Shown here: piece by piece, positions 30,848 through 34,366 of the stretch
How the letters are laid out: every line of letters starts with the position of its first letter
Position numbering within the stretch: position 1 is the stretch's first letter
DNA from: an uncultured Pseudomonadales bacterium
GTDB lineage: Bacteria > Pseudomonadota > Gammaproteobacteria > Pseudomonadales > Azotimanducaceae
NCBI GenBank assembly: GCA_938017975.1
Contig: CALIKQ010000051.1
Span: 1 to 64,000, forward strand
Direction of reading: 5' to 3'
Length of the DNA stretch: 64,000 bases
The notes under the pieces: model-generated
The model's database searches: none
What the model saw: only the letters and a program-made list of their open reading frames with translations
What the model was told of the DNA's origin: nothing
Made by a program: the position numbers and the translations under genes

Positions 30848-31441
30848 ATGCAACACTTCGACTATCAATCGGCTGGATTTTTAACCAGCGCGACACGGCT
30901 TACCGAATGTCCTCCGGACGAAGGACAGGAAATTGCATTCTGTGGCCGCTCAAACGCAGGTAAGTCCAGCGCGATCAATGCGCTGACCCGACAAAAGAAA
31001 CTTGCGCGTACCAGCAAAACGCCTGGGCGAACCCAGCTCATCAACTTTTTTACGCTCGGCGAGCAGTCTCGTCTAGTTGACCTTCCAGGCTATGGCTACG
31101 CCAAAGTACCGATGTCACTTAAGCAGTATTGGCAAACCCATCTCGATGAATACTTTCGAGGACGCACAAGCCTCAAAGGCATCGTGCTCGTTGCAGATAT
31201 TCGCCACGCGCTGAAACCCTTTGATGAGATGATGGTGACCTGGTCACAGAGTGCAGAACTGCCTATTCACATTCTTCTGACCAAATCAGACAAGCTCAAG
31301 CGGGGACCACAACAAAGCATCTTACTCAAGTTAAAACGAGATCTGCCCGATCACGCCAGTGTCCAGACCTTTTCGTCGCAAAACCGAGAGGGTATCGATG
31401 AATTAAAATCAGCGCTCGATGAATGGTTTACCAACCGATGA
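30848..31441 (+). CDS. engB: Ribosome-assembly GTPase EngB (YihA/YsxC)
   Basis: 197-residue GTPase needed for late assembly of the 50S subunit. G1 GRSNAGKSS (33-41), switch I around [10 protein letters not shown]3 [11 protein letters not shown]4 TKSDK, G5 SSQNREG. It is convergent with polA across a 237-base gap; the same arrangement occurs in E. coli and Pseudomonas. Confidence 0.95.
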
Positions 31442-31457
31442 CACAAACTCAGTCATG

Positions 31458-31495
31458 AAAAAAAACCCCACCCTCTAGCAACGCCAGAGGTGGGG
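31458..31495 (-). terminator. Strong intrinsic terminator
   Basis: On the minus strand AGAGG-TGGGG pairs in a GC-rich stem (31466-31476 with 31486-31495, one bulged base) and eight T follow (complement of 31458-31465). It ends the candidate small RNA and any polA read-through. Confidence 0.88.
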
Positions 31496-31613
31496 CCGAG
31501 ACTTCGGTAAAATGGGGGAAAACCGAAGCTTCTGTCGAAACATTCGGGCAACCACTTGGGTCACAGCATCGATAACAACGCGCCCACCAAGGTGACTGCC
31601 AAAACGCACGCAC
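31458..31613 (-). ncRNA. Candidate small RNA between polA and engB (Spot 42/ErsA position)
   Basis: The minus strand has a sigma-E-type promoter ending at 31620 and a strong terminator at 31495-31458, bounding a transcript of about 155 bases with no gene inside. Just before the terminator is a hairpin, CTTCGGT (31502-31508) with ACCGAAG (31522-31528), whose loop in the RNA reads TTTTCCCCCATTTT: an exposed C-tract suited to pairing with G-rich ribosome sites. This is the locus of spf (Spot 42) in E. coli and of ersA, driven by AlgU, in Pseudomonas. Sequence likeness to either is not claimed; position, promoter class and terminator are the evidence. Confidence 0.65.
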
Positions 31614-31619
31614 AGATCT

Positions 31620-31647
31620 TCAGACCCTAGCCCTACCAATAAGTTCC
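31620..31647 (-). promoter_or_regulatory. Sigma-E/AlgU-type promoter
   Basis: On the minus strand GGAACTT (31647-31641), a 16-base spacer, and TCTGA (31624-31620). This fits the extracytoplasmic sigma-E/AlgU consensus (GAACTT, 16-17 bases, TCTGA). It lies 32 bases after the polA stop, pointing into the non-coding gap. Confidence 0.7.
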
Positions 31648-31678: not shown

Positions 31679-34366
31679 TCAGTGCGCCCCCTCCCAATTG
31701 GAGGCAACACCCACTTCAACTTCTAGTGGAATTTTAAGTGAGGCCGCGCCTGACATTAATTCAACCACCGCCGCCTGTACTTTCATGATGCTGCTGTCCT
31801 CAACTTCTAAAACCAGTTCGTCGTGAACTTGCATAATCAAAAGCGCGCTCGCACCAGATTCGGTCAACCAATTCTGAACATCGATCATCGCCCGCTTAAT
31901 AATATCGGCAGCCGTGCCCTGCATCGGCGCATTGATTGCTGTCCTTTCCGCGGCCTGGCGCATTTGGAAATTGGATGACTGAATCTCAGGTAAATACAAG
32001 CGCCGCCCAAACCACGTTTCAACATAACCTTGATCCGCAGCTTGGGCACGAATCTCCTGCATGTAAGTTTGAACACCTGGATACCGTTCAAAATAAAGAT
32101 CCATGTACGTCTGTGCATCTGCCCTTTGAATACCGAGCTGCTTGGCCAGTCCAAAAGCTGACATCCCGTAGATCAACCCAAAATTTATGGCTTTCGCGCT
32201 ACGCCTTTGATCGACCGAAACCGAATCCAACGGGACCCCAAAAACCTCGGAAGCAGTCGCCCGATGAATATCGAGTCCTTGATTGAAGGCTTCCGTCAAG
32301 CCAGCATCACCTGACAAATGCGCCATAATTCGAAGCTCTATTTGAGAGTAGTCTGCGGCCATCAGGGATTTTCCAGGAGGCGCGACAAAGGCCTTTCTCA
32401 CCCGCCGGCCCTCTTCAGTGCGTATGGGAATGTTTTGCAAATTAGGGTCGGTGCTCGATAACCGACCCGTGGCAGCAACCGCTTGATGATAAGAAGTATG
32501 CAACCGACCACTCACCAGCGATATCTGTTTTGGTAATTGATCCGTATAAGTTGATTTCAATTTATTGAGCCCGCGATGATTCATCACGACCTTGGGCAAC
32601 GGGTAATCAAGCGCGAGCTCTTGAAGCACGCTCTCATTTGTCGAAGGCTGGCCTTTGGGGGTCTTCTTTAAGATGGGCAAGCTCAACTTCTCAAACAAAA
32701 TCGCTTGAAGCTGCTTCGGAGAGCTCAGATTAAAGTTTTCTCCTGCAAGGTCGTACGCTTGCTCAGTTAACGCAGCAAGCTTCAGCCCTAACTCCTGGGA
32801 TTGCTGCTCGAGCATTTTACTGTCTAGGAAAACTCCATTTCGCTCGATGGTTGATAGGATGCGAACCAAAGGCAACTCTAGCTCCTGATAAACTGCACAC
32901 AACCGATTCTCACCTTTGAGCTGAGCCCAGAGAACCTCGTGTAATTGCAGCGTTATGTCGGCATCTTCAGCGGCGTAGTGTCCAGCACTTGCTAAATCAA
33001 TTTCGTTGAACGTCTTTTGTTTAGCCCCTTTTCCAGCAACTTCCTCAAACTTGACGGTTTTTCGATTGAGGTAGTGTCGCGCTAAATCATCCATATTATG
33101 ACGAGTTGCCACACTGTTCAGGACATAAGATTCCAGCATCGTATCAGCGATGTTTGCTGAGATTGTGAATCCCTCACGAGCGAGAACACTGATATCAAAT
33201 TTTAGGTTCTGTCCAATGACAAGCTTTTCAGGATCATTTAAAAACGGAGCTAGACGATGCAAAACCTCAGATCGGTCGAGTTGCTTCGGTGCACCTTCAT
33301 AATCATGTCGAAAGGGAATGTACGCCGCCAAACCGGGTTCGGTGCACACAGACACACCCACGATTTCAGCGGTCATATAATCAAGGCCGGTTGTTTCTGT
33401 ATCAAAAGCGAATTGCTTGGACCGGTCTAGGCGGTCAAGCCAAACTTGCAGATCGGACTCTGTTAAGACCAGGTCGTAATCTATTTTTGGCACGTCCAAC
33501 ACTGCCGGCTCGGGTCCTGAAAGCTGATCCAACCACGTTCTTAATTCAAATTCTTCGAAAGAAGCGCGCAAGCCATCGATATTTGGTTCGGTTAGTTTTA
33601 GTTCGGAGACCGTCACGGGTAAATCTAGGTCAATCCGAATGGTCGCCAAATCGTATGACAAGGGCAAGTGAGAAAGCGCTTCCTTTAGGTTCTCTCCAAC
33701 CTTTCCTGGTATTTCATTGGAGTGCGTCATCACACCATCGAGCGAGCCATAATTTGATAACCACTTCACCGCAGTCTTTGGACCACACTTTTGAACACCC
33801 GGAATATTATCGACTGTATCGCCAACCAGCGCTAAATAATCGATGATTTGATCGGGACGAACGCCAAATTTCTCAACAACACCGGCTTCATCTAAAAATG
33901 TGTCGGTCATGGTATTCATTAACGTCACCTGAGCGCTGACCAATTGCGCCATGTCTTTATCACCGGTTGATATAAGCACCTTTTCACCGGCGCTTGCAGC
34001 TTGAGTTGCGAGGGTACCGATGACGTCATCTGCTTCTACGCCGGCCTCGACGATCAGGGGCAAGCCCATTTGCTGGATAATTCGGTGGATCGGTTCGATT
34101 TGTTGTCGAAGATCATCGGGCATGGGCGGGCGATTGGCTTTGTAATCAGCATACAAATCGTTTCGAAAAGTTTTACCTTTGGCGTCAAAAACAACGGCGA
34201 TGTCCGATTCTGGAAAATCGGTTTGCAGCTTTCGAATCATGCTAACGACGCCTTTAATCGCGCCAGTGGGCTGACCGTGCTTGGTCGTTAGCGGCGGCAG
34301 AGCGTGAAAAGCTCTGAAGAGATAGGATGAACCGTCGACTAAAATTAGACTAAACTTATCAGACAT
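31679..34366 (-). CDS. polA: DNA polymerase I
   Basis: 895 residues with all three domains: 5'-3' exonuclease (about 1-290, LVDGSSYLFRAFHALPPL), 3'-5' exonuclease (about 300-490, with FAFDTETTGLDYM, so the proofreading acidic residues are present) and polymerase (about 520-895: AADYSQIELRIMAHLSGD, RRSAKAINFGLIYGMS, MQVHDELVLE). Fills gaps and removes Okazaki primers. Divergent from the DUF2782 gene by 35 bases. Confidence 0.98.
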   Translation of the reverse strand: MSDKFSLILVDGSSYLFRAFHALPPLTTKHGQPTGAIKGVVSMIRKLQTDFPESDIAVVFDAKGKTFRNDLYADYKANRPPMPDDLRQQIEPIHRIIQQMGLPLIVEAGVEADDVIGTLATQAASAGEKVLISTGDKDMAQLVSAQVTLMNTMTDTFLDEAGVVEKFGVRPDQIIDYLALVGDTVDNIPGVQKCGPKTAVKWLSNYGSLDGVMTHSNEIPGKVGENLKEALSHLPLSYDLATIRIDLDLPVTVSELKLTEPNIDGLRASFEEFELRTWLDQLSGPEPAVLDVPKIDYDLVLTESDLQVWLDRLDRSKQFAFDTETTGLDYMTAEIVGVSVCTEPGLAAYIPFRHDYEGAPKQLDRSEVLHRLAPFLNDPEKLVIGQNLKFDISVLAREGFTISANIADTMLESYVLNSVATRHNMDDLARHYLNRKTVKFEEVAGKGAKQKTFNEIDLASAGHYAAEDADITLQLHEVLWAQLKGENRLCAVYQELELPLVRILSTIERNGVFLDSKMLEQQSQELGLKLAALTEQAYDLAGENFNLSSPKQLQAILFEKLSLPILKKTPKGQPSTNESVLQELALDYPLPKVVMNHRGLNKLKSTYTDQLPKQISLVSGRLHTSYHQAVAATGRLSSTDPNLQNIPIRTEEGRRVRKAFVAPPGKSLMAADYSQIELRIMAHLSGDAGLTEAFNQGLDIHRATASEVFGVPLDSVSVDQRRSAKAINFGLIYGMSAFGLAKQLGIQRADAQTYMDLYFERYPGVQTYMQEIRAQAADQGYVETWFGRRLYLPEIQSSNFQMRQAAERTAINAPMQGTAADIIKRAMIDVQNWLTESGASALLIMQVHDELVLEVEDSSIMKVQAAVVELMSGAASLKIPLEVEVGVASNWEGAH

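Follow-up and report, generated by a model that had tools for sequence, protein, structure and literature searches.

What does the short gap between polA and engB encode in this uncultured Pseudomonadales bacterium? In the window (the whole 64,000-nucleotide stretch analyzed here), the gap spans 237 bases and separates polA (31679–34366, minus strand) from a convergent engB/yihA gene (30848–31441, plus strand; TIGR03598, 235.4 bits). The first-pass annotation had placed a sigma-E-driven small RNA (sRNA) there, at a position held by spf in E. coli and by AlgU-controlled ersA in Pseudomonas. The minus strand, which is also that of polA, carries a −35 element of the sigma-E/AlgU type, GGAACTT (31647–31641), followed after 16 bases by TCTGA (31624–31620), part of a −10 element GTCTGA (31620–31625) whose GTC is present in same-genus copies. 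This pair and the eight-T terminator run (31458–31465) were confirmed exactly where they had been described. Taking the 5′ end (near 31614) from the −10 element and the 3′ end from the T run delimits a putative sRNA gene of ~157 nt (31458–31614, minus strand), in line with the ~155 non-coding bases previously claimed. Its fold, the conservation of its core, and the lack of an open frame kept among 17 copies agree with this assignment.

The predicted fold comprises three parts, all on the minus strand. A 5′ domain formed by one long hairpin (31543–31614) is followed by hairpin 1 (31501–31529; stem GCUUCGGU/ACCGAAGU), which displays the C-rich loop UUUCCCCCAUUUU with its C run at 31514–31518, and by a terminator hairpin (31466–31497) with a bulged GC-rich stem and an apical loop that lacks CCCC in the window. 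The stretch GUUUCGACAGAA (31530–31541) lies directly 5′ of hairpin 1. The 160-nt RNA folds with −68.8 kcal/mol (z = −4.62), and none of 200 shuffles folded as well. This terminator was missed by a generic scan for terminators, probably because its stem is bulged.

In same-genus gaps, the promoter box, the stretch GUUUCGRCAGAA, hairpin 1, and the terminator are retained, and it is the flanking sequence and the 5′ part that vary. Comparing the polA–engB gap in relatives was one of the tests that, by the first-pass annotation, could overturn its reading, and the box, the hairpins, and the locus are all kept. R1, a covariance model built on the 85-nt core of 17 same-genus copies, detects the sRNA in 14 of the 15 genomes of the genus; the missed genome is 62% complete. 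When 49 copies were aligned (A4), 95.1% of cells were paired; shuffled versions reached 79.4%, and slid ones no more than 49.5%. Doubly changed cells numbered 175 versus 48.2 in shuffles, although A4 was fitted to R1's structure and hence leans towards it. Double changes occur in 17 of 20 pairs of this alignment and in all 11 pairs of helix 3, the terminator. The base pairs of the sRNA covary, and its structure is conserved. The 5′ hairpin domain is a ~60-nt addition which, among the same-genus copies aligned, is found only in the nearest relative (G004); the 12 pairs altered between the two comprise six compensatory, four one-sided, and two broken changes.

Could the gap instead harbor a small-protein gene, or a dual-function RNA like E. 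coli spf, inside which SpfP is annotated? Open frames of 52–55 codons do cross the window copy. However, the length of the longest frame varies between 6 and 55 codons among the 17 copies, which lack a common start or length, and that of the nearest relative reaches 28 codons. A small ORF in the sRNA was rejected for this lack of conservation across the 17 copies, and we consider a coding function extremely improbable.

The window has one copy of the sRNA, with the extra 5′ hairpin, whereas many relatives have two to four tandem copies. Eleven same-genus gaps are intact at both ends, and seven of them contain two (L005, L006, L007, L010, L011, L013, L044); most duplicated same-genus copies carry their own box; a single copy is present in L001 (the window) to L004. 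Elsewhere in the family, the model detects two copies in L049, four in L051, and two in L053, where a third was recognized by eye. Each of the four tandem copies in the L051 gap follows a TGAACTT-GTC box. Between the two copies of L013 lies an array of ~22-base repeats (1094–1405; unit AACGCTAAGGGCTTTTTTACAC), and similar stretches were seen by eye in L005, L006, and L008. Arrays of this type might be linked to sRNA duplication.

A plainer explanation would make the element a mere terminator, serving polA alone or the two convergent genes together, without any independent sRNA. There is indeed a strong hairpin with a T run downstream of polA, the two genes converge, and the model scores lean on the terminator. 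Yet the promoter box, hairpin 1, and the upstream stretch are conserved as well, the tandem duplicates mostly come with a box of their own, and the 5′ hairpin shows compensatory changes. We therefore regard this explanation as highly unlikely.

For an sRNA with its own sigma-E promoter, conservation of the box across relatives is stronger evidence than shuffle or chance tests. Within 130 nt upstream, 39 of 48 model matches have a sigma-E-type box, compared to 30 of 1823 stretches drawn at random from these loci; by group, the box precedes 37 of 41 matches in the window's family, both matches in family f43, and none of the 5 in family f39. In 1000 dinucleotide shuffles of the gap, the box score of the native sequence was never reached. 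The pattern GAACTT-N15–17-TCTGA occurs at three sites in the 3.19 Mb genome, one of them at the sRNA, and the reversed pattern at six, so that the pattern is not enriched genome-wide. The genome encodes AlgU/RpoE (274.7 bits; cut-off 236.15) next to nadB-, mucA-, and mucB-like genes, named from their translations rather than by family search, and Hfq (92.8 bits; cut-off 61.7). Judged by the box sequence and the presence of AlgU, the promoter appears to be of the sigma-22/AlgU type that characterizes ErsA. A conserved sigma-E-type promoter thus precedes a terminated non-coding RNA, and together with AlgU/RpoE, its anti-sigma-like operon, and Hfq, this supports the original reading of a sigma-E-driven sRNA. 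We infer that the gene is transcribed and that its transcription depends on sigma-E.

How far does this sRNA extend beyond the genus? In a family sample, R1 matched 34 of 200 genomes at E 0.05, 20 of the 34 belonging to other genera. Of these 20 genomes, G137, G156, and G200 were left out, and in all 17 other-genus loci examined (L045–L060, L071) polA lies beside the match, as does engB in 16. The order sample gave matches in 13 of 390 genomes at E 0.01. Six of the ten outside the window's family adjoin engB (L061–L064, L066, L067), and L065 (family f39) has neither polA nor engB within its 1.5-kb flanks. The matches L068–L070, with neither gene in their flanks, look like ordinary terminators and were rejected. 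Strict filters were applied when whole genomes were scanned with R1, so that a genome outside the genus that gave no match may still have the sRNA. A second R1 match in the window's own genome lies at C9:58614–58718 (E = 0.0058). Scanning 84,980 species for hairpin 1 returned 12 records, all from metagenome-assembled Gammaproteobacteria/Pseudomonadales and corresponding to 12 same-genus genomes, and no DNA similarity below E 0.05 was found outside the genus among 58 genomes compared.

Orientation and promoter vary among these distant matches. The sRNA match is on the engB strand in L055, L061, L062, L064, and L066, and L055 keeps the sigma-E box. The five f39 matches show no box by the pattern used; four are on the engB strand beside engB, and the fifth is L065, where terminator-like tandem units with periods of 42, 51, 100, and 151 (1602–2095) directly follow the sRNA-like match.

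We also surveyed 40 further families of the order, each represented by one hand-chosen genome. polA was within reach of engB in 19, and the gap exceeded 100 nt in 16 of these. Ten of the 16 gaps contain a polA-strand box at p ≤ 0.03 (100 shuffles each), or perhaps nine, as in L165 a site other than the one immediately following polA was scored; L155 has a high-scoring box on the engB strand. A further covariance model (R3), made from A4 and free of Pseudomonadaceae sequence, scored above 20 bits in 5 of the 14 survey gaps kept out of training (L148, L163, L170, L177, L179). In L161, GGAACTTTGCGTGGGGGGTGCTGTCCTA is found close to engB with polA not found nearby, and the sRNA might remain beside engB where polA relocates.

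Does the RNA belong to a known family? At gathering thresholds, Rfam reports no family in the whole window. The best permissive match, anti-hemB/Burkholderia RNA 7 (RF02837; 19.9 bits, E = 0.021, cut-off 49.5), has E 1.3 in a larger search and was rejected as the identity of the window RNA, with which it shares a hairpin–terminator layout. A permissive match to Chlorobi-1 on the other strand of the window (E = 2.1) was not accepted either. The covariance searches with ErsA and Spot 42 models that the first-pass annotation had recommended came back empty, with no window match at gathering (50 bits for ErsA) or up to E 10, and the sX13 model likewise has no window match up to E 10. SabS of Acinetobacter and a table row on anti-hemB (accessible parts of PMC12153292 and PMC5688073) were of no use to the argument, nor was the accessible part of PMC5819304; Pseudomon-1 is listed as found in Pseudomonadales in the available portion of PMC2864571.

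Two other sRNAs occur beside polA. Spot 42 (spf, RF00021) occupies the same gap of E. coli in the same orientation (polA > sRNA < engB), so the parallel drawn earlier agrees in place and orientation. Homology was nevertheless rejected, as R3 scores Spot 42 at 19.3 bits by aligning the terminator alone and skipping hairpin 1, and the Rfam Spot 42 model has no match in the window. Spot 42 further differs from the window RNA in its CRP control and galactose targets (accessible text of PMC3771888). The same portion of that paper describes sX13 (RF02232) of Xanthomonadaceae as polA-linked, with 4C/5C stem-loops that act on G-rich motifs at ribosome-binding sites, and as not requiring Hfq in Xanthomonas. 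sX13 has three C-rich loops, whereas the window RNA has one CCCC loop. A gap sRNA from another Pseudomonadales genome, L172, reaches 34.4 bits with the sX13 model (E = 0.0023; cut-off 50), and its positions 115–235 match the Rfam sX13, anti-hemB, and ErsA models weakly at once.

The remaining comparison is with ErsA (RF01719). We took family f21 as Pseudomonadaceae because all seven genomes above the Rfam PrrF cut-off fall in it, and collected 50 loci, sampling 50 of the 58 f21 genomes in which engB was present. An ErsA probe sequence printed in the available part of PMC7565897 is present in nine of these loci, and Rfam calls ErsA in all four submitted (L115 and L116, 134 bits; L096; L098, 68.1). 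ErsA is encoded on the same strand as polA, downstream of TGAACTT and GTCAGA, and has C-rich loops. Although built from one genus, R1 matches 27 of the 50 loci (E up to 0.023), 26 of them just downstream of polA and/or engB and on the strand of polA or opposite to engB (the exception is L085). A sigma-E box stands 72–78 nt before the match in 22 of these 26 cases. R3 exceeds 22 bits in 29 of the 50 loci (25.5 in L115–L118, E = 2.4e-5; 41.1 in L098). Control loci, the window itself aside, reach at most 14.9 bits, in a control that is small and not random, since several of its loci had been fetched via weak matches or as other sRNAs, and that omitted L068–L070. Both models match the ErsA loci from model position 1 to the end.

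The reverse comparison gave matches below the Rfam ErsA cut-off of 50 bits. With the ErsA model, L063 (family f43) scores 37.6 bits (E = 2.8e-4), and the second tandem copy there, which reads as a box, a CCCCC-loop hairpin, and a terminator, scores 25.3 bits; the two copies lie at 1493–1606 and 2002–2088 on the minus strand. L045, from the window's own family, is matched in the right place and on the right strand with 25 bits (E = 0.41), and L172 and L067 score 24.6 and 24.3 bits.

These similarities could nonetheless be those of an unrelated RNA, if the gap is a recurrent nest for independent sRNAs and the window RNA resembles ErsA only in position, promoter type, and a generic C-rich hairpin with a terminator. 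A model without the terminator (R2) was used as a strict homology test and came out negative: on ErsA it does not rise above background, the best at-locus match having E 0.99 and three others lying near E 9. Two control loci, which this query had itself brought in by a chance match, gave E 0.002 and 0.012. Much of the ErsA link accordingly rests on terminator, position, and promoter. A strong terminator by itself can also reach a score with R1, as L068–L070, picked from 390 genomes, do at 27–28 bits. The Rfam ErsA model misses the window, and Spot 42 shows that an RNA alike only in its terminator can sit in the same place. Against an independent origin, R1 and R3 match the ErsA loci over the full model length on the same strand and in the same place, L063, L045, and L098 match both the R models and the Rfam ErsA model (in two cases below the cut-off of the latter), and the boxes lie 72–78 nt before the match in 22 of 26 at-locus cases. 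We consider an independent origin unlikely. Shared descent of the window RNA and ErsA is likely, though not proven, with position, strand, and promoter carrying much of the case.

The parallel with ersA that had been proposed at the outset thus holds for gap, strand, and promoter type, and the two RNAs also share a hairpin with terminator and C-rich loops. The window RNA differs from ErsA by its diverged sequence, a different 5′ domain, and a terminator loop without CCCC. The further claim of a sequence of its own stands insofar as no Rfam family reaches its cut-off and DNA similarity is confined to the genus, but it needs qualifying because covariance models connect the window RNA to ErsA.

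Overall, we are fairly confident that the gene specifies a trans-acting sRNA of ~157 nt with a sigma-E promoter and its own terminator, a diverged member of the ErsA lineage whose C-rich loop would block translation at G-rich sites. In the available texts, ErsA is controlled by AlgU and represses algC (PMC8395346), and represses oprD in an Hfq-dependent manner (PMC7264166). By analogy, envelope stress would free AlgU from its anti-sigma factor, and AlgU would transcribe the sRNA up to its own terminator. Hairpin 1 would then expose its U- and C-rich loop, and the CCCCC loop, presumably helped by Hfq, could pair with G-rich ribosome-binding sites or leaders, as with ErsA and sX13. Such pairing would block translation of selected mRNAs, as ErsA does for oprD and algC.

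Which part of the RNA pairs is a separate question. All 17 same-genus copies show CCCC in the loop of hairpin 1, and 12 also show it in the terminator loop, the exceptions being the window, G004, and three others; the presence of CCCC in every hairpin 1 loop but not in every terminator loop suggests that hairpin 1 is the main pairing part. Alternatively, a real sRNA of this family might pair mainly through GUUUCGACAGAA or its 5′ part. This stretch is about as conserved as the C-rich loop in alignments A1 and A3, and the predicted pairing region of ErsA for anr is the U-rich domain II upstream of SL2, not the C-rich loops (accessible part of PMC8575079). Conversely, C-rich loops recur across the wider family by eye, and a start upstream of 31614 would let ACAGA pair with UCUGU. 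Pairing outside the loop is in our view the less probable arrangement, albeit one to be taken seriously.

For pairing through the C-rich loop, candidate targets were sought before start codons. Across 15 same-genus genomes, complements of the loop before ATG number 377, compared to 218 for the reversed pattern, a weak difference given that the reversed pattern differs in composition. The window's own genome gave 24 matches, of which 23 were inspected and an overlapping twin (L233) was left out. Among the matches listed for other genomes, 60 places from four genomes were selected for A or G after GGGG (for G001, the first 19 only), and the 12 with frames of at least 60 codons were viewed. By eye, the motif lies at plausible starts of sdhA (L236 in the own genome, L293 in G001), ccmB, and alaS. 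The probable sdhA starts of L236 and L293, in two same-genus genomes, are preceded by TGGGGAAAT, which is complementary to the C-rich loop. The low duplex energies of sdhA, ccmB, and alaS follow from how these were chosen, and as weak hints the three are offered as leads only and not claimed as targets.

The window RNA appears to be a distant, hitherto unlabelled relative of ErsA in an uncultured bacterium whose relatives are mostly known from environmental DNA. The ErsA literature covered concerns Pseudomonas aeruginosa, its virulence, biofilm, and porins. No report of ErsA relatives in these lineages was found in the full-text literature, covered through titles and abstract openings with subscription papers mostly outside, and given this scope the negative is no proof of novelty. 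More speculatively, the gap may be home to a single sRNA lineage, ancient and evolving fast, that spans Gammaproteobacteria or reaches even further. Its diverged descendants would be ErsA, the RNA of the window together with its tandem relatives, sX13, and perhaps anti-hemB; C-rich loop hairpins and a sigma-E promoter would be ancestral, and the promoter lost or replaced in f39 and Spot 42. We hold this broader idea only tentatively. If the window RNA is related to ErsA, the function would be older and wider, and distant comparison should reveal its essential parts. The finding also bears on a question left open in the available text of PMC3771888, namely whether polA loci elsewhere encode similarly acting sRNAs. 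Covariance models of the R1 and R3 type could annotate genes left blank by Rfam, and species with two to four tandem copies provide natural tests of dosage or specialization.
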